In this document: positions 2,831 through 19,840 of the stretch, piece by piece | Layout of the letters: each line of letters starts with the position of its first letter | How positions within the stretch are numbered: the stretch's first letter is position 1 | Made by a program: the position numbers and the translations under genes | Notes under the pieces: generated by a model | Seen by the model: only the letters and a program-made list of their open reading frames with translations | The model's database searches: none | What the model was told of the DNA's origin: nothing | Assembly: GCA_004565275.1 (NCBI GenBank) | Contig: SDOX01000019.1 | Span: 554,340-618,339 of the forward strand | From: Nannochloropsis salina CCMP1776 | Taxonomy: Eukaryota; Sar; Eustigmatophyceae; Eustigmatales; Monodopsidaceae | DNA length: 64,000 bases | Direction of reading: 5' to 3'

Positions 2831-5203
2831 TTATGCTTTCGTCTGTAATAGTTTGTGCAATACCGCCTGCTTCCGCCTTTCTATTGTCTGCGGTCTAAAC
2901 GTTAATGAAGATCGTGCTAGCCGTTCTATTTCGGAACGCACCTTCGCTTGGCTGCCACGTTGATCTTGTGGACGGGAGCTAAGCCGGAAGGGACGAGATG
3001 TCGTCATTGTGTACAAAGAAGGAACACAATTTGTCCGCATTCTGGCTCCCCCAACGGCCAGGGCAGCCGTGGCGGATGCCTGCCCTTGACGCTGTTGTGC
3101 CGCTGCCTGACTGCGGGCTAGGAACTTCCCCAATCCGCGTACTAGAACTGGGGACTGGTGGCGATCCATTCGCGGCCGGCTCATGTTTTTCGTTAATAGT
3201 GGCGACCAAGTACAGGCTTTCAGCTCTTCTGCCTCGCGGGCAGCACGAGTATCCGCCGCCTGGGCTTCCTTTAGACCCCACCGGTCCTCGCCCCCAGCCG
3301 ACGTGGGCTGTTGCGCCCCAGATAATGAACGGTCCTTCACTTTTCCGTGATTTCGGGCAACAGTCTTGGCAATGACGGACTTGCTTGACACGTGTCCTGA
3401 TCTTGATCCAAGGGCAGGTCTCTGTAATGAAGTGTAAGAATGCACATTGCTTATCTCTGGTTGAAATGTGCACGCAGCTTCAAAGCGAGCCTGAGCCTCT
3501 TCGGCGGCCTTGTTTCGGGCAACTACTCCACGCCAGTTGTAGGTGAGCTCCTCGATGTCGGAGGACCGGCCCAGCGCACGAGACAAGGGATTGATAGATG
3601 GTTCATAATGAAACTCGCTCAAGGCGGCCATCGTGCGAGCCTGCCGTGCAGCTTCCCGCCGAGCCCGCTCCTCGACCGCCAATCGATGCACCACAGAACC
3701 CTGCAGGTTGGGGCGCTCATCGCTTTCATGTCCCTTTGACTCCCTCAGACTTCGGATGCGCGCCACTATAGCTTCACTCTTGGGCTCCAGGACTGGCTTG
3801 AACCAACGCTCTTCCTCCGCCGCCATGGCCTGCTCGACGGCCACTGCTTTCTCTCGCCTGTAATCCTCCCAAAGTTGCTGGCGCGCTTCAAAGCCTGAAG
3901 GCCAGCCTGCTTTCACGAGAAGCTCATCCGTCTTCTGCGCAAGAGTGGGCGCAAATCGGCAGTCCACATGCCGCCTCGCCTCCGAAGCCGATCTCCTGGC
4001 CATGCGTTGCTGCAAAAAACGCTCAGAATCACGCACAAGTCGGGAGAAAGTGCTAGATTGACGTCCCAGAGGATGCTTCACTTTTTCCTGATCAGTGCCA
4101 GTGTCTGAATTGCCGTTGCCAAGGCGCCGTTGGCGAGCCATCCCCTCTGTCATCCCACAGAGGCGCGGTTGGAACGTCCATTCTGCCGCCCTTACTTCCT
4201 CTCTCTCCGCTCGGAGTCGGGCCAAGTGCTCGCGGCGAGCCCGCTGAACGTCTCCAAGGCGTTCATGCAAGGGTTTTTCTCGCTTGGGACACTGGGACGG
4301 CGAGATAAGTGTGGAGGACGGGGGCACGCGGCCTCCAGACCCGCTTGAAGCGCTCGTGTACAGTACCGGACGGAAAGTGCACTCGCGCGCCTGCTCCTCC
4401 AGTACTTTCGCCTGTCTGATTCGCCTAGCCTGTTCTGAGGCTTTTTTTTTTTCCATCAAGCGCTCCGGCAAAGGCTTGACAACTTCTTCCCTGCTGGCTG
4501 CTGCAGCTGCGGCAACGCGTTTTTCTGTCCCTTCGCACAGGCTGGGCTTAAAAGTGCATCCCGCTTCAGCCAATTTGAGTGCTTCTTGTTCGCGACGCAG
4601 GCTTTCTCTCTCCTTGTAAATCTCGTTGCGTGGTTGAGCTAGCCTGGAAAGTGCAGCGGCAGAAGTTGCGAAAGTAGTCGGAGTGTGATATCGGCGGCGG
4701 AACGCATGGGCACTCGCTCGAAGCGTTTTGAAGGGTTGATGCGTTGAAGATGGGGACGGCAACCTGCCTGCAGCCATGAAAACTGGAAAATTAGTGCGAC
4801 CACCATCCACTTTGGCCAGTTGCGAATACTGGACTGGATCTGAGGGTTTCGGGCCGAGTGAACCGGAGGCAGAGCGATGTCTGTCTGATGGGGCGAGATC
4901 AGGCCATCGTACCAACTCAGCTTCTGCCTCGTGAAGCTGGTGCTCTATTAAGTCAAACTCTAGTAGATGGGATTGCATGGCCAAGGCATTCCTAGTGCTG
5001 TGGATGTGTCGGTCGCGAGCGTGAAAACTGATTCCCAGACGAGGCCGTCGCCAAGGCCGCCTTGGCGAGGCCTCAAGTTCAAACTTTCCCCTCCTTCCCG
5101 CTGGGCCCTTTCTGCCGCAGCTCGCAGGCATCTCAGGCCTCTGCCCGTCTTTGCTTTTGAGGCATCGATAGGGTTGAGCTCTTTTTAGGAGCCTTTCAAG
5201 CAA
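2831..5203 (-). CDS. Coiled-coil protein with nine FxPx(L/I) repeats, function unknown
   Basis: Single open frame of 790 aa, rich in Arg, Glu, Ala and Gln, predicted helical with coiled-coil stretches. I do not recognise an enzyme domain. It carries nine copies of an aromatic-x-Pro-x-(Leu/Ile) motif, usually preceded by Cys or Trp and a second aromatic or Thr. Examples are CTFKPSL (about 216), CTFRPVL (273), WTFQPRL (340), CRFAPTL (413), RWFKPVL (465), FHYEPSI (530), CTFQPEI (576), CTWSPLL (663) and LTFRPQT (764). Spacing is about 50-100 residues. Each motif follows an Arg/Glu/Ala-rich helix, which suggests repeated docking modules on a scaffold. A later Met at about residue 76 could be the true start, because the first 75 residues are basic and low in conservation features. 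Its start lies 102 bp from the divergent myosin gene. Confidence 0.75.
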   Translation of the reverse strand: MLERLLKRAQPYRCLKSKDGQRPEMPASCGRKGPAGRRGKFELEASPRRPWRRPRLGISFHARDRHIHSTRNALAMQSHLLEFDLIEHQLHEAEAELVRWPDLAPSDRHRSASGSLGPKPSDPVQYSQLAKVDGGRTNFPVFMAAGRLPSPSSTHQPFKTLRASAHAFRRRYHTPTTFATSAAALSRLAQPRNEIYKERESLRREQEALKLAEAGCTFKPSLCEGTEKRVAAAAAASREEVVKPLPERLMEKKKASEQARRIRQAKVLEEQARECTFRPVLYTSASSGSGGRVPPSSTLISPSQCPKREKPLHERLGDVQRARREHLARLRAEREEVRAAEWTFQPRLCGMTEGMARQRRLGNGNSDTGTDQEKVKHPLGRQSSTFSRLVRDSERFLQQRMARRSASEARRHVDCRFAPTLAQKTDELLVKAGWPSGFEARQQLWEDYRREKAVAVEQAMAAEEERWFKPVLEPKSEAIVARIRSLRESKGHESDERPNLQGSVVHRLAVEERARREAARQARTMAALSEFHYEPSINPLSRALGRSSDIEELTYNWRGVVARNKAAEEAQARFEAACTFQPEISNVHSYTSLQRPALGSRSGHVSSKSVIAKTVARNHGKVKDRSLSGAQQPTSAGGEDRWGLKEAQAADTRAAREAEELKACTWSPLLTKNMSRPRMDRHQSPVLVRGLGKFLARSQAAAQQRQGQASATAALAVGGARMRTNCVPSLYTMTTSRPFRLSSRPQDQRGSQAKVRSEIERLARSSLTFRPQTIERRKQAVLHKLLQTKA

Positions 5204-5305
5204 CCAAAGAGTCTCGCATTTACGTTCGGAGAGCCAATCAATGCCATTAACTCATCGTACCGGTTAAGCCGTAGTGTTCATTTTTCTTCCTCTACAACAC
5301 CTACA
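5204..5305. promoter_or_regulatory. Short divergent promoter, coiled-coil protein / myosin
   Basis: Only 102 bp separate the two start codons, so both 5' UTRs and the core promoters must overlap or be very short. No clear TATA box is seen. Confidence 0.5.
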
Positions 5306-8300
5306 ATGCGCAGATTCCACATGAATCATCAATTTGACTGGTCTCACAGCAGTAAGGGCGATCCATTGTGGCTTTCTGATACTGACGAGGGCTATATTGA
5401 AGCTCTTCTGGTGTCTGTGCAGGGTGACAAGATTATCGTCGAAGACAAAGGGGGCAAGGTACGTCCAAGTGATGACATGAAGATGGATTTCAATGTTCCC
5501 ACGCGGACTCGACCATACTTGAAGTTCGGAGAAGTAAGATGAGAGGATTCGATGTATATGGAAATGTGCCATGAGAAATGCAACAGGAGAGTGAACATAT
5601 GAAATACCGCATTGGCATCTCATCTTGATTAAAGGAAGGGATGTTGTGCAGGGCCCCACGCGCCCGTCAGAATATTTGTCTATCAGACTCCTTTTAATTG
5701 TACAATGTATCTGTGTAAAGCGTTTTACCGTAGATGCGGACGCTCTGTCACGGGGTGGGCCGCCACCGGCTTTGCACGGTACCGGAAGAAATGGCGGAGG
5801 ACGCAAGAAGAACGCGGAAGGAATGCGGCGCTTGTTGCCTCGCGCGAGCAATGTCAGCGCTGCTTCACCTACAACGAAAACTTCAGTCCCGCCAGAGCTG
5901 CACTGCCACAACATGGAAAATATGGATGACTTGCACCCTCTGAACGAGGCGACCATCCTGGCCAACATCGCGCATCGCTACCGCACGGACCAGATCTACA
6001 CCCGCACGGGTCCCATCCTCATTGCCATGAACCCCTTCAAGTGGCTACCCATATACGGTCCCGAAGTCGTGCGACAGTACAGCGGCAAACCCTATGGGAC
6101 ACTGCCCCCGCATTGCTATCAGGAGGCCGAGGATGCGTACCAACAGCTTCAGCGTACACACGTAAACCAATCGGTCGTTATATGCGGGGAATCGGGGGCC
6201 GGCAAGACAGAGACAACTAAGCTTATGTTACAGTATATCAGCATTGTGGCGCGAGACGACTCAGAAAAGGAGAAGGCAAGTGGCCATCAGGGGCTCGAGG
6301 CGGGAGGAACGGCCGCCATGCAAGAAGGTGTCTCCCCATCGCAGGCCAAGGAGCCTCTGACCATAGGCGAACGTCTGGTACAATCGAACCCATTGATTGA
6401 AGCCTTTGGAAACGCAAAAACCCTCCGCAATAATAATTCAAGGTACGTTATTGACCAAGAGAGGATTGCTGGATTTCTCAGCATCACAAGGTGTCACGGT
6501 ATTCAGGCTCGATATTCGAATGCGCGCGCCACATCAAGTCTTTCCCTTGGTTTGGACATTTGTGATGTACGACTTTTTTTTCCTCGGCCATTCTCATTAA
6601 CCCGATTCCTGTAAATAATGCTCATATATCCTTCAGCCGATTTGGAAAGTTTACACTGCTCAATTTCAAGCGCACAAGCAATGTGCGCGGATCCCCGGTC
6701 CGCCATGATCTGTTAGCACAGCCTGGGAGCAGGCAGGGGGGATTTCCCATTTGTGGAGGGCAAATTAGCAATTTCTTGTTGGAAAAGTCACGTGTCTGTC
6801 GTCAACAGGGCGGAGAGAGAAATTATCACATATTCTACCAACTTTTAGCTGGTGCCTCAGAGACTTTGCGAAAGCAGCTGCACCTTCCAGCGGAAATTGA
6901 TAAGGACAAGGCGAATAAGTTCTACTATCTTGCGCAAAGCGGCTGCACGCAAGTGGAGGGTATAGAGGATGCTGACGATTTCGCCATGACCAGGTACGGA
7001 TTCAGACATGACCCTCAAATCTGTAATTTTGCATGACTTTGTGCTCAGTTGAGCGCACGGCACAAACATCGCCCTTGTGTGTCTCTATTTAATGTTCTGA
7101 CTGACGTATTTACGGGCACGTGTTTGTCAGGGCGGCCATGGATGCTGTGGGAATCACGTACGAGGAGCAGGTTGCTCTCTTCCAAATGGTGGCGGGTGTC
7201 CTGCACCTTGGCAATGTGGATTTTGAAAGCAGTCCTGATGGCGAAGAATCAAGCGTTCGGAGGGCATTTGGAGCTGGAAATAACGATGGAGAAGTGGACA
7301 ATGGAGAATCCGCTCTGGATGTGGCAGCTGAGTTCTTAGGACTCGCTCCAGAAAGACTTGCTGAAGCTTTAACGACGCGCGTGCGGCAGCTACCAGGAGG
7401 GAAGACTGTCCGCTCCCCGCAGACCGTGGCGCAGTCACGTGATTCGCGCGATGCTCTGGCAAAAGCTTTGTACAGTCGGCTCTTTGATCGTCTTGTGGAT
7501 CGACTAAATGCAACCTTTGCTGAAGATTGCGGGTCTACGAGCACCGCCATAAGCATTACAACGTCTCACAGGAGCAATGTGCTTTCATCAGACTCTGTGT
7601 CCGCCCCATGCTTCATCGGAATACTCGACATTTTTGGTTTTGAGAATATGGCCGTCAATTCGTTGGAGCAATTGCTTATTAATCACAGTAACGAGCGTCT
7701 CCAACTTTTGTTTAATTTAGCCACCTTCAAGCGTGAAGAAGAGGAATACGCGCGCGAGGAAATCGATTGGGATCGCTCCGATTTTCCTGATAATCAGCCA
7801 TGCGTCGATCTCATTGAGAAGAAACCTTTGGGTGCGTAGGAGAAATTATCTTAGCAATATTTGTCGCGCCTCATTTTCTCTTTACTTGATATGCATCCTG
7901 TTCGACTCGAGTGACACCATTTTTACCTCTTGCTCAGCCAACTTTTGTCGACCCGTTTTCCCACATCTATGTTCAGGCCTGTTGCCCATATTGGATTCGG
8001 AATGCACCAGAGGTGCGGCTGCTAGCGATGGGGCCTTGGTGAGCACCTATAACAAATCATTCAGAGGACATGCACATTACGGCGTTTGCGGTCCTTCAAC
8101 AGCGTGGCGAAAACAGGTTGGAAGTAAGACCAGCACTGGCAGCCACTTCACGGCCGATACAGATTTTGCTGTAATGCATTATGCGGGCGGCATCATCTAT
8201 AGCTCCAACGATTTCGTAGACAAAAATCGCGACGCGTTATTCGACCACGTCAACGCACTCTTGGCCACAAGCTCATCTTTCCCGCTTGTTACCTCTCTCT

Positions 8301-11300
8301 TCAAGGCAAACAATGCTTTGTCTTCTTGTTCTGCTTCGCCTTTAGAATCCCCACAGTTCTCAGCAAAAATTCGGGCAAGTACTGGTGAAAGCGGCGGAGA
8401 TGATGATGGTACTGGCGGCAATACGAATTTGCGCGCCAGCAATGGCACAGTCTCACAGCGGTTCAATGCACAATTGAATGGACTGATTCAGACTCTAGAG
8501 GGCTGCGATGTACGATTTGTGCGCTGTATTAAATCAAATCAGCTCTTGGCGCCCCAGGTGCTGGACAAGCCAAGCGTGTTGAACCAACTCGTCTGCTCTG
8601 GAGTGATGGCAGCACTAGAAGTGCGACGAGCGGGGTTCCCCACTCGGATGCCCTACTGTGATTTTATACGGGACTTCCGCGTTTTTACGGTCGGCTTTCC
8701 TTCCTCCGAAAAGGAAAATGAGGCGATTGCATACGACAAGCTTTTAAGTCTGCATCGTAATGAGACTCAAATAAGGGCTGCTGTCAAGCCTAGGATGCCG
8801 TCTCTTAAGATGGATTCAACCACCCCGAGCACTCACGATCATCCTCCAGGCATATACGAAGTCGATGACCATGATGAAGCCAACGGACAAAGCAAATACG
8901 GCGAGTTAAAAGCAGCCCGCTCGTTGACGGCCATGATGATGACTCATCCAGCCGTACTAAAGGCTGTAACGGCACGTCAGTATCGCTTGGGCTTGACGAA
9001 ACTTTTTTTACATGCCGACACTTTGCTGGTTCTTCAAAATGTTAAACACAAAATTATACTACCGAAAATTATTCGTCTTCAGCGATGGTGGGTTCGGATT
9101 TCTGAGTCGGTACTACTGCACAAATTGAATCGTGCAGCCCAACTTTTGCATGAACTGGAATCTCAAGTCGACGTGGGAGGGATGCATGGGACAGAAAGAG
9201 TGCAGCGGGCTCTAGATGAAACAGCGACCGCAGTTATGTACGCGCGGCGGCTCAATTCTCTTCAGCCTGAAGTGTTCCGGCCTGCTGTGGAGCGAGCCTG
9301 TAAGAAGGCACAAGTGGCAGAGGAGCTTGTTGAGCGGGTTATAGCCATCAAGAAAAGGGACTCAGAGCAGCGGGCAGAGCTGTTGGGAATGCTGGATACA
9401 GGCCGTGCGCGATTGAGTCATGCGCAGAGGGACCTAGATGATGTTGAATTGCAGGGTGAGGCGCGATATCTAGTGATACACAGGATGGATAAGGCGGCGA
9501 AGGCTCTACGAGAACAGTCAACGCAACTACTGAAAGTAGCGAATCGAAATGCCATTCGTAGCCATGGCAAGAATCAGGACTCAGAGAAAGGGCACGAGCC
9601 TGCAGCTTTGCATCGCCTTCATCTTCAAGCTACAGAAAACGCTGATGAAGGAATAATTGACGGCACAAGCTTGGACCGTACAGGGAAGATTTACAAGTGT
9701 TTGGACCAGGAAGATCCTGAAGAGGTTGCGCGTCGAAGAGTGCTTGCGATAGAAGGCGTGCTGACGATGGTGAAAGATGCAGAGATAGCACTAGTGCATC
9801 TCCAATCACAACAGCAACGCCTCTACGAAGCAAGGGAAAAAACTAAAGAAATTTTTGCGCACATAAAAAAAGATTTTCGGCATACATTAGAGGCGGCAGA
9901 GAGCAGTGGCATCGTGGGAGATGGCATGGGTGTGGAAAGCAGAGCAATACAGCAAAATATCGCGACTGTCCGCGACAACATAGCGGAGGTCGATTGTGTT
10001 TTAGAAACCTCTCAGGATCCCACGGCTTTGCAACCGGCAGTAGAGCACGCAGCCTTCCTTGTTTCTGAACTCTCTTCCTTCGTGCAAAATGAAAGGCTGC
10101 GCATATCATCGGAGGAGAGGCGGCGACAAGGTCGACAATTATGGGAAGAAGCTCACTGCAAATTCAAGGAATTTCTGTCCGAAATAGAAAGCTCGGGTAT
10201 AAAAGGAGGAAATGTACCCGCTTCTGCGCATGCTGTCACTGATGCCTTCACTGATTTCGAGACTGCGATAGAGCAAGCAGCGTCTCTATTGACTAGCGAT
10301 GATTCACACGCATACGTTCATGCTTGCCAATCCCTGCACGGAAAACTTGAGAAAATGAATGCGATTCTCAAAGCCGAGATTTTAGTCAAGCAGAGACATG
10401 ACAAAGTGCGAGAGAAAGAGCTTGCGCGCGTCAAAGTTGCACACGAGAAGGTCCTGAACTTGCTGAGAAGCGTTGAGATGCATTGTACTATGGCCGCAGA
10501 GCAGCAGTTGTGTGAGGGCTTGTGTACGAGTCTAAGCTTCTCGGAAGAGGTCTTGGCGGATTTGCAAGCGAGTCCAGCGGTCGCTTCCCTAAAAGATAAG
10601 GTTGAAACGGCCATTCTTCAGTGTGCAGCCTCAGAACGTCGTTATGCAGATGTCAAGCAGCGGCATGAATCGCAGGCAAGAGAAATAGCTACGGCTCATT
10701 GCGAGCTTGTAGCTATGCAGAAACGATTCAAAACGCTGCTCTCAAGATATGGTATAGGTGGACCGGCAGTAGCAGATAGTAGCAGTGACGACCAAGGCAC
10801 TGTCGGTGCAATTAATGTGCTCACTACCTTATGTGAGTCAGCAATGTGTCTGTGTCGTGATGAATTGCGAAACTTGGAAAATGCCGTCCGTCTGGGAGCC
10901 TGTCCATCGCTTTCCTCTGCTTTGTCTGCCGCTACCGAATCTATATGTGAATTTGAATCGCACGTCAAGACGCAGAGCCAGCGCGTGGAAGCAATGTGTA
11001 AAGCCAGGCAAGAGGACCTTGGGAGATTATTATCAACGAAAGGCCGCTTCGACTCCTTTCTAGAGAATATATCGCTCGTGGAGGAAAATTGTCAACCTGG
11101 TAACGCCGCTTCCCCTTCATTCACCGTTCGGTCATCCATGCTGTCAGGTAGCTTATTTCTTGGCAAACCGAGCCTTCGGAGACTTGTATCAGACGTCAAA
11201 ATGGGCTTGCAGCAGGTCGAAGAAGAGATACATGTACCGATCACGGCGACATGGTTCGAAGAAGAAGGCTATCACGGAAAACGACAGCAAGAGCGGCGGT

Positions 11301-14300
11301 CTGTCAATGAGGCAATCTCTCGTGTTGAGAAAGCTGAGAGCTTGATAGAGCATGCACGAAAGAGATACGCAGAGCGTCAGAAGGAATGGCAAAAATGTCA
11401 ACTTAGCCTGGAATCGGGGCAAGCCAAATTGCTTTGCCTGGAGAATCTGGTAGCAAATGGCGGAATGCTAGCTTATCTGCGCGCGGCTCAAGAGATCCTT
11501 GAAGCTTGTCAAGCGTCGTATGATATGACAGCGAAGCTGATGGCTAATGCCCAGAATACAGCGTCAGCACTGAATACCAACGTAGACGACTTTGACGAGC
11601 AGGACGTTGAGGAATCTGCGCTCATTAAAGTGTGCCAAACCGTCGCATCTTTCATCGAGAAAGTTACGAATGCTGAAGCTTCTTTGAAAGCCTATCAAGT
11701 TAGGGAAGACGCCTTTACGAAGGAAAAGCACAATTTACACGAAAAATTTCATTCAAATTTGTGCCGCTTCCAAGAAAACGTGGCCATGATTGCGGCGGCC
11801 GGTTCCACCGTTCAAAAACTATGTCAGGTTCCTTCAGATGATGCTGCTATGGCGATTAACCGAGCAGCTTGGCTCCTTCGTCGTGGCGTTGTAGTAACTT
11901 CCGACAAAAACGGTGGAAAGGTCATTAAGGAAAGCGAAATAGATTCCGCACGACTTTATGATCCTTTAGATAATGATGGCATGCATACCTTGCAGTCGAT
12001 GACCGAAGCGATTCATGAGGCTGTCAAACGCGTCGATTCCCTAGAACTTGAGGCGCAGCTACTTCGAAGGCGCGTAGATCGTGCCTCTGCTTTCAAAATT
12101 TGTGAAAGCAAGAAGCTAGCCTCTCTTCAAGACGCGTTGCAAGTGTGCGCTGAGAGGGCCGAAACGTATGGTCTGATTAATGAGAGCTCAAAAGTAGAGC
12201 TTCCTCTAAGTCGGGCAAAGCTTAGCGTAGCCTCGATATTTTCCAAACTTGAGCAACCATTACATGTTTGGATGGATAATATGACACTACTGGCCAAGGA
12301 TGTGGATGCAGCGATAGCAGAGGTAGTCAATGTCAAAGAATTGTTAAATCAAGATGTTGAGCTTCAAGCCCGAGATAAACGAGAGCGTGAGCAATGGCTA
12401 ATCGGTCAGAGGGCTCTTCAAGATCGATGGGAATGTGCTCGGGATGCTGCTGTGAATAGTGGGGTGATGCAATTCCAGGAGGTACAATCAATGCTGCTGG
12501 CCGTTGAATCAGATTTAGCGGGGCAGGAAGGAATGGAAAATCGGCCAATGCGCCTCCATACACTGACGCAGCGTGTGACAGACATGGAAGAGCTCGTATC
12601 ACGTGAATCCCAGCGCCTTCGTATTCGAGAGTTGAACGTAGAGAAGGCGTTGAAGGCTATACCAACCCTTGTTGACCGACTCGCACGCCTAGAAAAGACT
12701 CTTCGATCCAACTTCCAAACATCGTCGCAAAGACAATTTTCTGAAGTCTCAGCCGCTGAAGCTACTGACACGACGGCGGCTGGGGACGAGTCACTCGGCA
12801 GGACTCATAAGTATTATACCGACACAAAGGAGGGAAGGAGTGATAGCAAAGAGGATGTATTGCAATCTGTCGTTCCACTTCATGTCAAAATGGTCGTTGA
12901 AGAAGCTAAGTCAGCCGTCTGGAAGGTCCAGCATTTTGCTCAAGAATCGTTAAGGTCGCCCCAAGTTCCGTTGCCTCGGGTTGATTGGGCGCTGGACAAG
13001 TTGCACGAAGCGGAAAAGGTGCTTGCGAAAGAAGTAGACCTGAAAAAGGCTATCAACAAGCAGCGGGCGGACGCTTTGCAGCACTATCGCTCGTTGGAAC
13101 GCAAATTTGCAGGTATTCAAGATGAAGTTACAACCCTTTGCACCAAATTTAGCTTCTTTCGCGTACAGCTTGAAGCTTATTCGGACGGTGAACTTTTCGA
13201 GTGGTTGGGTACTCAAACTAATTGCGTCCAGTCGGGCACTAGTGCTTCCTTATTAGTAGACGCAGCAATACCAGATACTGTGGCGTGCTCTAGTGCGCAA
13301 TCCATGGTCAGAAGCATCGCCGACGCACGAAATGCACTCATGGATGCTCAAAGGTGTCTCTTCACGGAGAAAAAATCGACAGCAACTCATGATGGAATTA
13401 CTGAAGACGGATCGCAACTTGCCAGCAAGACGGTTGCAGATCCAGCTTCTATAGCAGCAATATTAGAGCGTGCTGCTTCAAAAATTGATCGAGCCAACGA
13501 GATGTTGGAGCGACAGAATGATTTTTGTGTCAGAAATGAGCACCAACGCGTGGTTGTACTGCGCAGCCTGGAGAAAGAACAAGACCGGATCGCCCGACTC
13601 TACGCCATCATAGGGACGCGGGGCTTGGATAGGACGATTTCTCCCGTAGCGAACGCATTGCAAGCTGCCGAGAGCGCTCTTAATACCGTGTCTCAGCTCA
13701 TTGATGCGGGACAGATATTAGTGGTAGGACCTGCTTTTGATGTGGCGGCAGCCAGAGTGCAAGAAGCTGAAGATGTTGTCATTTGGGAAACAGAACGGAA
13801 AAGAAGGCTTGATCGCCAGCGCGACGCGGTCAAGGTTGAATTAGAACGTCAAACTCTGCGTCAGAAAGCCTTGCGTCAACTTGTGCAAGAAACAAAGTAC
13901 TTAAATCAAGCAATTGCAGTCACCGACTGCATGGTAGATGTGGGTAAGGCTCTCGAGCACGCAGCCCTGTGCGTAAATGATAACCCTATGTCGTCGGTCC
14001 CTCTAGCCACCCAGCACGCCGAACTTCGGATTGTAAATGAGCGTCTACAAGCGGCAGAACGCGAAATTCGTCGAGCAAGAATCCAACACGAAGAAGAAGA
14101 ACGCTACGCGCGGCAGCAAGCGAAAGAGGCGCGACTGCGCGTGATGCGTGACGCAGAACAAGAGCGGATCCGCGTGGAAATTGAAAAAATTAAGCGCTCT
14201 AAATTGGAAAGCGAGCTTGAGAAACTCACAGCTCGTTTAGCTTTTCATCGACCAACTCTCGACAATATTTTTTCAAGCATGGCTCGGGCAGAAGAGGCTG

Positions 14301-16213
14301 TAAAATCCGCTCGCGATACGTTGTCTTTACAAAATGAAGATGCTTATGGCAATGATGAAAATGGCACTTGTGGAGAGTGCGAGAAGAAGGATGTAGGTTG
14401 TGGTAGCATGAGCCGTTACAGCGGTGACGGAAGGAGTAGTGCCCCTGACAAAGGTATTTCCGAAGCCGCGGCAGCTGCTGAGGCCGCGCTGACGCTGACC
14501 GCACGTCTAGAGCAAGCTCTACATGGCTCAGCGATTGGTAAGTACTCGTCATTATCCCTTTCCCCGAGTGGCATAAATACTTGGGGCGAAGATAAGCTCG
14601 ATCTCAGTAGGCCAAAGGCAGAAGCGATGGGTGAGTGGGAAAATTCTACTACCTCAAGATCGGTTTCCACCGAGAAATTACAAATCTACATGGACAAGAC
14701 TACGCACACTTTGGAGGCGGTCGCTCGGAGTGTCGAGGTCTTGAACCTCGGAATGACAGACCTAAAAATGTCTGTACAGGAACAAGGCCTTCAGCAAAAT
14801 GCCCACAAAGATATTCTTAAGTGCGCATCTTACTCGCCCGATAGCATCACAGTTCTCCCTGTGGAAGGCGAGGTCTTTTCGACGCGCGCTCCCTCATCCA
14901 TGGGGGGTCCGATGGTAAGTCGTCTGCCCAAAGAAGGTTCGTGGGAAGCTTTGTCGCTTTTGCGCCACGCTTCGACACCACCTGGTATCTACGGAAATGG
15001 TGGTCCTGAGGAAAAAGGAGACATTTTGTACAACGGTAGTGATGAGACGGACTGTGATAATGGCGGACGACTGGAAGATGAGATTGGGCGGTCGGTTGAT
15101 GCGAGCAAGCAGGCGGCGCTTTGTCTTCGGGAAGAGAATGGCGTCACGCGGAAGGAAAAAAGGCAATCGGTGGATGAGGACATTTCTGCGCTCCTCAGTA
15201 AATTTTATCCCGACGATCTAGTTTCCCACCTAAGAAAGCTCGTCACATCAGGCGGTGTTGTGCTTAATGACACAATTGCCAAGAGCAGCTATTCAGGGGA
15301 TACCTTGGAGCTTTTTGCCGGAGATTATGCCTGCTATTCTTTATTTGCCCCGCTCTTTGACCCAGTTATAGCTGCTTGCCATCCGCGCTACAATAAAACG
15401 CACAAGCAGCCGTCGGATTTTAATGTGGACCATCTGAGGGAGGCCTTAGGCCCTTCTGTGCTTACAGAGAAAAATGGGGATAACGTGCGAATGGCGCGGC
15501 TAGTCGCATCTAGAAATTTGTGCGGTTACAATTACACGCCAAAAATGGGCGTTGCGCAATTACGAGAAGTGGAAAGGAAAGTTGTGGCAGCTTTAAACTG
15601 CTTGACAGGGGACCTGCAGGGCACATACACTACGATTAAGGATTTGAAGACGAATTCCGCATTGCAAGAGGAGATGGATATTGCCGAATTGCCGCAATCT
15701 TATCGCCTGGATGAAAGTGCAGGTGACCTGTCGTGTTGGCCCGAAGGACGTGGGGTATTCCTCAATCAGGATCGCTCTCTTTGCATCTTCGTGAACGTGG
15801 AAGATCACGTCACAATTGTAGCAACTGCTCGACAAAATGGATCGCAGGATGGAATCGCCGCCATCGGCTGTCGTGCCTTTGCTCTGTCATGCCGGGCCCT
15901 CACAAACTTGGGACTGGACTTCGAATTTGACCAACGCCTGGGTTACATTACCCCTTCGCCGGCCAAACTAGGGACGGCCTTGGCCTTCAGCCTGGTATTT
16001 ACCCCTGCGACGTCTGCCGGGGAGCTGGATGAGGTAGAGCGTCAGTACGATGTGGTCTTAGATCGGGCGGGGAGCGCACACCACGGTAAAGACGTCCCGT
16101 GCATAGTCTTCAACAAATTCAGCTTGGGCGTGTCGGAAGTAGAGAGCATTCAGGAGGTTATTATGGCGTCAAGATTTATCCTTCATGCTTCAAATGGCGC
16201 AATGAATGGATGA
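5306..16213 (+). CDS. Giant myosin with C-terminal phosphagen (guanidino) kinase domain
   Basis: Proposed exons are 5306-5533, about 5898-6442, 6637-6993, 7131-7831 and 7977-16213. All introns are GT-AG and the sum is 3355 codons plus stop; the first acceptor is least certain. An SH3-like N-terminus leads into a complete motor (about residues 75-960) with P-loop GESGAGKTE (about 173), switch I NNNSSRFGKF (split by an intron) and switch II DIFGFEN. One degenerate IQ-like helix follows. The tail (about 985-2780) is helical with recurring units of about 95-130 aa, then a charged coiled coil and a low-complexity linker. Residues about 3010-3355 align end to end with creatine/arginine kinases. Conserved landmarks include AGDxxxYxxFxxLFDPxI, WPEGRG, the EDH of NEEDH, RLGYI, LGT and LGxSEVE. 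The motor should be an active actin-based ATPase. The kinase part may be a pseudoenzyme. I cannot assign a myosin class. Confidence 0.9.
15180..16213 (+). other. Phosphagen kinase domain of the myosin
   Basis: This stretch encodes about 345 residues, close to the 350-380 aa of a whole arginine or creatine kinase, including both the N-terminal helical and C-terminal catalytic parts. By-eye alignment retains the Arg of WPxxRG and the second Glu of NEEDH. It has ARLV where active enzymes have SRVR, Thr for the Arg after NEEDHL, Ser in place of the reactive Cys, and Ala for the Arg after LGTxL. Loss of several ATP-phosphate-binding arginines suggests weak or no catalysis. Substrate cannot be inferred. 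Confidence 0.85.
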
Positions 16214-16475: not shown

Positions 16476-17686
16476 TTACATCTCTTTATCACCTGCATTT
16501 TCTCTTTCAGTAATATTTCCTCCCAGCAGAGGATTGTCTTTTCGGCTCATGAACAAAATGCCTTCGTACATTACAGAAGACAGCATCCCAAGAGGAGCAC
16601 TTGAAACAAGCTTCGGCGCGAAACCTCGAAGAAAGGACTGCCACAGCCCTTCCTGCTGTATGATGGTATTTAGACTTCGTATGAAAGTCAAGGGTCCGGG
16701 TTTGGCATGCTGTGTTTGTAACCGCGTCTTGGCGACGTCTAGAGGGTTCGTGGCAAGAGCGCTCAGACCACCCGCAAATAAGCCAGCAATCATGTGTGGG
16801 AGCGACTGCCGAATGGCGGCGAAAAGCTCGCTTACTTGATCGAGCACAAGTTCAACAGAGAAAAGGGATGATGATGTTGAGGATGTTGGCGCGGACGACG
16901 GCGATACAATCTCAAGCGGCGGAGGGGGAAAGGTTGTCGCCATTGTAAAGAACGACTTTAATGATTCATAAGTTTGCCACCACACGCCCGAGGCGATGCA
17001 GGACGTCACCAGTGTCGCCCCGAAACCCCGATAAAATGTGCGCAAACCTGGAGAGAAGAGGAAGAATGTCAATCAACAGATAGATTTGCACGCTTTTCTG
17101 AGACTCTAATACAAAATAAGCAAGCCATCCCATAGAGAGAGAAATTACGGCACACGCAGTTCGAGAGATGGCAGATTTTTAGGTCGCTCTTACCGTCCTC
17201 GCGCCACATGTCCGTAAGCACCTGTTGGACTCCAGAATAGCGCGTGGGCAGTTGTAAGCGTTGTGCCACAATTTCTACTGGTATGTACAAAACTAAACAG
17301 GCAGCATCAGCCATGATACCGGCAGCCATGGGTGCCATGGTAAGCGGGAAACTGCCCTTCGAGGTTTCGACAGGACCGTCAGCGGATGGCGTGCTTAACG
17401 CACTCTTCGTGTAGGTGTACGTTCCTATGTATGTGAGGTAGGCGGGAAGACTCGCGATAGCGTAGAATAGGAAACCTTTGTAAAGTGAGCGTAAACCGCC
17501 CATGCGGCGCACGCTCAAGGAGTGCGTGACCGCCCCAGTCTGAACTTGTTGCCGGGTTTTCATGGCCCACATTGGCCACATGATGCTGTTTTCCACAAGA
17601 GTGGCTAAAGTAGAGAAAATAAGAAGCTTGTTCATGTCGAGATCTTCCCAAGTGGTCTGCCCCAGGTTAGAGATGTCTAAAGTCAT
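16476..17686 (-). CDS. Mitochondrial carrier family protein, SLC25A44-like
   Basis: Two exons on the minus strand, 17194-17686 and 16476-17047, with a 146-bp GT-AG intron, encode 354 aa. Three carrier repeats are visible through their signatures: PMWAMKTRQQ (first), PVEIVAQRLQ (second) and NPLDVAKTRLQ (third), each followed by a glycine-rich RGF or KGF element. The opening WEDLDMNKLLIF resembles the WEHLDKKKFYVF opening of SLC25A44, a branched-chain amino acid carrier, but substrate assignment from this is weak. The protein should sit in the mitochondrial inner membrane with six transmembrane helices. A Ser/Pro-rich loop (about 210-235) is inserted in the second half. Its 3' end converges on the myosin gene, 262 bp away. 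Confidence 0.85.
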
Positions 17687-18232
17687 GATGAATCGTAATA
17701 GTCGGCTTACTAATCTTTGTGGAGTTTTATATGGGTGACGAGCGCGAGCAGGTTACGAAAAGCAGTTGGCCAAAAACTCGCCTTGACCGTCCACGTCAGA
17801 TGACCTAAGGTTGTTAAAAAGTCATGTGTCAGGATTAAATGCCATGTTACGCCGTGAGAGAGTCGGGGTAGGGGCCCCTATCGTTCGACTTCGACGTCTT
17901 CTCCGCTCCCGGCGACCCAGCGAGTCTTCGCCGGCCCATGTATTCTTCAAGGGCCCGTCGGGCCATGACCTGCTCCCTGTACAAGTTGTCGGGTTTTAAC
18001 GAGTAAACCATGCACAGTAATGATTTGACAGTTGATCTCCATCATCAGAGATTCAAATGTCGAAGGGTTGACGTACGGAGGGACGCATGCCGAAGGATCA
18101 AGCGTGCTGAGGACGCATCGAAAGAAGTATCATGACGGTGCATCTTCCAAAATGTTCCTCTGGTCTTTCTTTTGTTTCCCTTTCAAATCACATTGAATCC
18201 CGATTATAAATTTGAATCTATTGGGTGACACA
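17687..18232. other. Intergenic, carrier 5' side / METTL3 3' side
   Basis: About 546 bp holding the promoter of the carrier and the 3' UTR of METTL3. A short plus-strand open frame here shows no family features. Confidence 0.45.
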
Positions 18233-19840
18233 TTATCGCTCGGTTGCTTCCCATCCACGGTATCGAACGAGGGTGTCGCCGACGAGATGAGTGGGAGGTA
18301 ACTGGTTTCCCACCGTAATCCAGCCTTCACGTATATTGTGTTTGCGACCAAAAACCTCTACTTTACGACCATCAGGGCATAGTCGTTCGATAATATCGTA
18401 GATTTCATCGGGTTTGCGACTTGTTTCACGGGCCTCAGCAACGATCACGTCGCAGTCAACATGATGGTTCACACGAGTACGTCCGCCGCCTCCTTCTAGT
18501 CCTGCCGTGACGAAGTCCCCTTTGACACCTACCAAGCAATGCTCCTTCGAATGATTTAGCCAGTGGCCTGTTCGGCCGGTGCGAATGACTTTTTGCAGCT
18601 GATTGGTCTTGATCCATATGATTTCCTCCAGCTGCTTGTATCCCCAGTACTGAAAGATTTCCCGCGCACGCTCCATCGCGCGTCCTGTTACCCACAAAAA
18701 AAGCAAGCCACCCTCTTCTTCCTGTAGTTTGGGAAAGTCGAGCTTACACACCTCATCGTCCGACATGGTGCCATAGGGAAGGTCCATGTGGATCTAGAGA
18801 TGTGTAAAGTATATAAGAAAAGGAGTGAAAGGCGGAGGCCAGAGTGTGACCTTCCGTTAAGATACTGAGGCGCCAAATCTCAAATATATCATGCCTCTTA
18901 CCTCCCATGGTGGGTCCGCCATGATGACCGGAAATTTGCCAAGTACAGAAAGGTCGAAATTTCGCACATCTACGTTCACCCACTGCGCAGGTGCACGGGG
19001 CGTTCTAGGGAGTGCCGGCGTCGGAGTCACTCCACGCCTTGCGCTTTCTGACTCGCGATGTACAGGATTGTTTTTGTCGCTCGTAGTATCCTCAATCTCG
19101 TAGTGTATGTACTTGCATGTACGAGTTCGTCGGCAGGTTGAGAGGTACGCACAATCACCCAAACTCACGTCAGTATGACTCTCGATGACTGGCTTGAAAT
19201 GGAGCTTCATGCACCTTTGATTCGTTGCCGTCCTAGACGGCAATGGTGTAGCCATGCCAATAGAAGATGGTTCTGACATCATTCTTGCTCGGCGATCGCA
19301 CTCCATGCGTGTTCCGTGAGGACAAAATTCCCGGATCGAATGGGCATCCTTTGTGAAGTACGCCACGGCTGAAGCCTCAAGCGCAGTAGGCTTTCCCAAT
19401 AAAGCTGCTATATCTTGTTGTTGCGTGTAGCGTGGTTTCGGGGATTTGCCTTCGGAAACTGATGCCAGCTTTTGCATTTCTGCATCGTCGGACTTTGTAA
19501 CTGCACGTCGCGGGTGTTCACATGTTTGTTCTGTCACATCTTTATTCGGATCCCATGAAGCTTGCGCGATAAAGCGTTGTAAAGCTATCAAATTAGTCCG
19601 TGTCAGCATTAATAAGCTTTTTGACCCAAAGTGTAATATATCAGTGTCAATCAGTTTATGCTCACGAAATTTCAATACTGCAGGAGCAAGGTCATCAGCT
19701 GAGGCAAGCGTATTTAGGTTTCTGAACTTATCCCGGTCGGAGCAGCGACGTAATTTTCGATAGAATGAACTTAAATCTAGCGGCAGACTTTCTTGCTGGC
19801 CGTGCTGCTCAGCAAGATAGAGTGCCAACTCTTTCTCCAT
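18233..19840 (-). CDS. METTL3: mRNA N6-adenosine methyltransferase, METTL3/IME4/MTA type
   Basis: Two exons, 18902-19840 and 18233-18793 (minus), joined in phase 0 exactly between DPPWE and [15 protein letters not shown], give 499 aa. The N-terminal half holds the family's CCCH-type zinc-finger module, recognisable as [13 protein letters not shown] ... [10 protein letters not shown] ... [11 protein letters not shown] ... [10 protein letters not shown]. The C-terminal MT-A70 domain contains the catalytic DPPW motif, [36 protein letters not shown] and the FGRKHN substrate loop. By family knowledge it writes m6A on mRNA in the nucleus as the catalytic half of a METTL3-METTL14 heterodimer using S-adenosylmethionine. 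All key motifs are present, so it is probably active. It is shorter than human METTL3 (580 aa), mainly at the N-terminus. Confidence 0.95.

Follow-up and report, generated by a model that had tools for sequence, protein, structure and literature searches.

The window analysed here, a stretch of 64,000 nucleotides from Nannochloropsis salina CCMP1776, carries on its forward strand a gene that we model as five exons (5306-5458, 5721-6442, 6637-6993, 7131-7831 and 7977-16213, all +) joined at GT/AG splice sites. The spliced model yields 3389 residues with its sole stop at the end and comprises an intact myosin motor, some 2000 residues of tail and, at the C-terminus, an entire phosphagen-kinase (PK) domain. 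Exon 1 encodes an N-terminal SH3-like myosin segment that matches Myosin_N weakly (E 1e-5; 25.6 bits, with the cut-off at 27). The motor continues through exon 2, with the P-loop GESGAGKTE at about 6186-6212, exon 3, at whose junction with exon 2 the switch I motif NNNSSRFGKF is formed, and exon 4, with the switch II motif DIFGFEN. Exon 5 holds the motor end, the tail and the PK domain in a single open frame. Within it, a degenerate IQ-like segment, LQRWW, was recognized by eye at the neck or tail start (9077..9091), where Pfam IQ gave no match at E up to 1. The tail that follows (9092..14671) has no Pfam family and contains a recurring motif of about 38 residues at uneven spacing; it leads into a last conserved tail segment, predicted to be a helix (YMDKTTHTLEAV..., 14672..14830), and then into the two Pfam domains of the PK, ATP-gua_PtransN (15188..15370) and ATP-gua_Ptrans (15566..16183).

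Around this gene, on the minus strand, lie an ATP_bind_1 protein (360-1247), which we take to be a GPN-type GTPase; an 806-codon open frame (2834-5251) in which repeated F-x-P-type segments were seen by eye and Pfam gave nothing at E 0.01; a mitochondrial carrier in two frames (16479-17752); and an MT-A70 methyltransferase (18236-18793).

An earlier, sequence-only reading of this locus had claimed an intact myosin motor whose end shares the large exon 5 with the end of the tail, so that the fusion would not depend on a doubtful splice. These claims hold. The exon coordinates are exact, and one open exon crosses the join, running from the closing part of the motor through the tail into the PK domain. 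Residues 1-950 of the spliced protein match Myosin_head with E 1.3e-192 and include the P-loop, switch I and switch II, as expected of a complete motor. The stop-to-stop frame 7721-16213 (+, 2830 codons) places the motor end, tail and PK on a single open stretch and, taken by itself, matches Myosin_head (profile positions 438-638 of 679, E 2e-36), ATP-gua_PtransN (E 1.2e-8) and ATP-gua_Ptrans (E 1.2e-16), so that all three domains proposed for a profile check score above their Pfam cut-offs. Motor, tail and PK form one gene, because P0005, a 2997-aa chain from another contig that carries all three parts, reads through all four exon junctions (compared by eye).

To find relatives, we searched a protein database with the kinase part as query, limiting matches to 0.55-1.75 times the length of the query protein. 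The six matches were the window protein itself (P0001), four proteins that join a motor to a PK (P0002, P0003, P0005 and P0006; 97, 60, 48 and 40% identical to the window in the PK) and the motorless P0004. The same architecture, which the earlier reading had proposed to look for in other genomes, is thus present in four more proteins, and because these also join motor and PK, the fusion is real and conserved and no local artefact. That a faulty gene model or assembly joined two separate genes has a negligible probability, given the stop-free single exon across the join and the identical join in four further proteins on other contigs; local mis-assembly or mis-splicing was dismissed on the latter ground.

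A second search, with the domain alone as query, gave 25 matches, among which P0007, P0008, P0009 and P0010 were set well apart by their E values (3.8e-138 to 1.1e-76, with the next match at 4.0e-33). P0008 has an N-terminal part similar to the final tail segment plus linker of P0003 (E 2e-9), so this protein too joins a tail segment to a PK. P0007 begins in the linker before the PK, and its N-terminal part matches the linker only (E 3e-28). In P0009 (599 aa), nothing resembling the tail was found among the first 260 residues (best E 0.18), and this protein may be a free-standing pseudo-PK or a broken gene model; P0010 is too short for a tail comparison. P0004 (1807 aa) has four PK units in tandem, without a motor match, and its residues 131-158 weakly resemble an RIIa docking domain (E 0.0072, below cut-off). 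As a multi-unit, motorless protein that falls outside the pseudo-PK group in the tree described below, it was dropped as a family member.

By homology the C-terminal domain is a PK: PtransN and Ptrans are both present above cut-off, and its match to the two-unit arginine kinase 4rf6 reaches a whole-sequence E of 3e-74, with the better unit alone giving 131.8 bits over 335 query residues. The earlier reading had described a full-length phosphagen kinase, and this is borne out for the fold; the active site is a different matter, for several catalytic residues are replaced. Our residue audit compared nine family rows with the shrimp arginine kinase 4am1, the second unit of 4rf6 and the canonical matches P0011, P0012, P0014 and P0019; it set P0031 aside and read four of the 20 canonical matches P0011-P0030 residue by residue. 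We use Limulus numbering and roles, taking R124, R126, R229, R280 and R309 to be the phosphate-binding arginines, E225 and E314 the catalytic glutamates and C271 the reactive cysteine.

In all nine family rows R126 is replaced by V, I, L or M, R229 by T or S, R280 by A, Q or T, and C271 by S. E314 is kept in none of the nine (replaced or gapped, in a gappy stretch). All five residues are kept in the two solved kinases and the four audited canonical matches. H185, H284 and R330 are likewise absent from every family row, and the substrate loop has changed as well, with G66 replaced by E and Y68 by F or I in the eight rows that cover both. Conversely, R124, R129, E225, D226 and S282 are kept in 9/9 rows, and given these residues some binding or rebuilt chemistry may persist. 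At the R309 column, where the shrimp enzyme 4am1 itself has A, no family row has R and six of nine have R one column later; R309 may therefore survive one column on, and we give little weight to the gappy region 309-314. The replacement of C271 and the three arginine losses are independent of that stretch. Thus, among the five phosphate-binding arginines, R124 is kept, three are absent throughout and R309 is unsure, and among the catalytic glutamates and the cysteine E225 alone is kept. More broadly, the six canonical rows share 111 fixed positions; at 46 of these the canonical residue occurs in none of the nine family rows (a gap being scored as absence), and at 22 every family row has it. 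In the window, E225 lies in the motif EDH (15800..15808, +), whose preceding E224 and following R229 are lost, and the C-P-T-N-L-G of arginine kinases is replaced by SPAKLG (15956..15973, +).

Because all nine rows have other residues at R126, R229, R280 and C271, and none has E314, the domain is most likely a pseudo-phosphagen-kinase, and ATP buffering by it appears unlikely. We searched the 26.5 Mb genome (103 contigs) from which the window comes exon by exon with PK profiles and found no other PK, a search that a highly split gene could escape. Each of the two PK domains had a single genome match, at this locus; a canonical kinase query at E up to 10 again returned this locus alone. No second copy of the tail was found in the genome with a 1309-residue tail piece as query. 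These results bear on the suggestion that a working phosphagen kinase buffers ATP beside the motor. An active enzyme tethered to the tail and regenerating ATP there would be in keeping with the complete fold, with both Pfam domains above cut-off and E225 and R124 kept in all nine rows, but it would have to work without the four replaced residues, with E314 replaced or gapped and an altered substrate loop, and with no second PK detected by the exon-by-exon search to serve a shared phosphagen pool. We consider it very unlikely, and the residue audit led us to reject active ATP buffering. Of the earlier proposal that the fusion couples the motor to local energy state or senses it, active buffering therefore falls away and sensing is left in a non-catalytic form.

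The same fold is used by McsB, a protein-arginine kinase with an active site of its own and no N-terminal PK domain. Protein-arginine phosphorylation by the window domain would agree with the shared fold, with the match to chain 8gqd, which is named a protein-arginine kinase (E 5.9e-7), and with the source label of P0010, which reads protein-arginine kinase. McsB is a single catalytic domain without PtransN, however, and PtransN is present here; the match is also much weaker than those to arginine kinases, and the three phosphate-binding arginines are gone. We regard this reading as scarcely credible.

A domain that has lost several of its catalytic residues might be a decaying, functionless remnant at the end of the protein. 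In the PK tree (30 rows) the eight distinct pseudo-PKs make up one side of a 100/100 branch, whose length of 1.35 on their side of a midpoint root could be read in this way. Against decay, the frame has stayed open, and in the diverged relatives the PK is better conserved than the tail: measured side by side, identity to the window in PK and tail is 61 versus 51% for P0003, 53 versus 42% for P0005 and 42 versus 33% for P0006 (97 versus 95% for the near copy P0002). Motor identity is higher than that of the PK in P0003, P0005 and P0006 (72, 70 and 55%); it is 86% in P0002, whose record covers the motor end only. Furthermore, at ten positions where the canonical kinases are invariant, the eight family rows all share another residue, with S271, A273 and K274 among these. 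From this pattern of conservation the pseudo-PK appears not to be simply decaying, and we judge the remnant explanation highly improbable.

EDH and SPAKLG are invariant in the eight aligned family rows and form a fixed new signature at the old active site. Former active-site positions are invariant more often than others, 14/25 versus 55/264 (Fisher p 0.0003), counted over ungapped positions of eight family rows. This count leaves out P0002, which nearly duplicates the window sequence, and 35 positions with gaps, 7 of which belong to the 32 positions that we took as the active site. Such a pattern would suit a pocket or surface with a new use. One possible, if rather doubtful, interpretation is a ligand-sensing pseudoenzyme with a rebuilt pocket for a nucleotide, for arginine or for some other small molecule, whose binding would regulate the motor or its attachment to cargo. 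The excess of invariant active-site positions and the two invariant motifs speak for it; on the other side, our choice of active-site positions and the dropping of 7 of them weaken the count, Pro/Gly loops may be fixed by the needs of the fold, any ligand is putative, and the three phosphate-binding arginines are gone. A shade more tentatively still, the emptied active site may have been rebuilt as a conserved ligand pocket through which a metabolite or nucleotide would control the cargo or the running of the motor.

The roughly 38-residue motif of the tail gave 5 to 10 matches per tail in eight tails at uneven spacing, compared with 5 matches in all the sequence that follows the motor in 102 other myosins of the list, and 1 in eight shuffled tails; its six seeds were chosen by eye from the window tail, so matches there are expected. 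It also occurs in relatives without a PK. A first extension of the repeat merged units. The hydrophobic periodicity of the tail is near 3.5, which fits helical bundles and coiled coil alike, and the tail of about 2000 residues may act as a helical spacer.

We used the motor of P0005 to look for the nearest relatives without regard to the PK: 8000 candidates were scored and 4052 passed E 0.001, of which the best 120 were listed. Among these, the nearest motors outside the family were P0032, P0033, P0034 (Tribonema minus) and P0035 (Chrysophaeum taylorii), and a family PK profile run over 147 proteins found no PK in listed myosins outside the family (best E 0.32, P0038). In a tree of 31 motors, which contained no class-labelled stramenopile references, the motors of the window, P0003 and P0005 cluster with 100/100 support, inside a larger group of nine supported at 100/99. 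The other six motors of that larger group, P0032, P0033, P0034, P0035, P0037 and P0038, including the Tribonema and Chrysophaeum myosins, show no PK, and the order within the group is resolved in part. P0006, with a small motor part only, was left out of the motor trees, so that three motors carry the PK label. Tails related by BLAST occur in five of the six PK-less motors (P0037, P0038, P0034, P0032 and P0033), with no match at E 1e-3 for the tail of P0035. In the window, about 120 residues separate the last conserved tail segment from the PK. A profile of this segment matches the C-terminal part of P0034 (domain E 2.3e-6), where the protein ends 46 residues later; P0032 gives a weak match (domain E 0.2), 30 residues short of its end. 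Elsewhere in the genome of the window, myosin-motor matches occur on contigs C29, C56, C57 and C85, those at C85:9623-11731 being short, diverged and spread across several frames, possibly a further myosin gene.

The simplest history would be that the PK was added once at the C-terminus of an existing tail and then lost catalysis, because the six nearest PK-less motors fall into one group with the PK-bearing ones, five of them have related tails and the tail of the Tribonema minus protein ends soon after the last conserved helix. Loss of the PK from the sister myosins may have occurred instead, which is compatible with the trees and their three labelled motors.

Taken together, we think it somewhat better than even that the gene encodes an ochrophyte myosin with a long tail, to the end of which a PK was added in an ancestor, that this PK lost catalysis, and that the tip now serves as a cargo, anchor or self-association module. 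As the motor motifs are intact, force production on actin would be expected. The PK, joined to the end of a pre-existing tail, would no longer carry out phosphotransfer. In other myosins, globular cargo-binding domains sit at the tail tip, and because the pseudo-kinase occupies this position, it would act as a non-catalytic module for cargo, anchoring or self-association, a role suggested by position only. We rank non-catalytic binding or self-association first and a ligand-sensing pocket second, and consider active phosphagen chemistry unlikely.

The sequence-only reading knew of no described myosin with this domain, and none was found in the literature searched. Searches for a myosin with a phosphagen kinase or guanido phosphotransferase domain returned no fusion by title or start of abstract; those on arginine kinase and unconventional myosin domain architecture returned nothing; those on myosin, arginine kinase domain and stramenopile had no arginine kinase domain in the best 20 of 116; those on phosphagen kinase in stramenopiles or algae had none on myosin by title; and those on pseudoenzymes and arginine kinase returned bacterial protein pseudokinases only. 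The words guanido and phosphagen are absent from the main text of three myosin surveys (PMC5583752, PMC3942036, PMC2375034), whose figures and supplements could hold the architecture. The main text of two of the three mentions unclassified stramenopile myosins, and a relative is possible in a figure or supplement. As far as the main text of these surveys goes, the protein encoded here would thus represent a new type of myosin tail. It draws attention to a family of phosphagen kinases emptied of their catalytic function and suggests the capture of a metabolic enzyme as a motor tail, in the probable order of tail first, PK added at its end and catalysis lost. The PK-less sister myosins offer a ready comparison for experiments in an alga.

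The closest known systems compare with the window protein as follows. The PK-less myosins P0032-P0035, P0037 and P0038 belong to the same motor group, and five of the six have similar tails, but they lack the PK. The arginine kinases 4rf6 and 4am1 and the taurocyamine kinase 4wo8 align nearly end to end with both PK domains of the window, and the canonical database matches P0011-P0030 are 27-32% identical to its PK; these differ in being enzymes with the catalytic set (in those audited) and in having no motor attached. McsB resembles the window PK through a weak match in the catalytic domain (8gqd). The kinase fold of class III myosins is unrelated to that of phosphagen kinases. According to the main text of PMC3942036, class III myosins combine a protein kinase with a motor; they are like the window protein in joining a kinase-type domain to a myosin motor, and they differ from it in that their kinase is N-terminal and a protein kinase.
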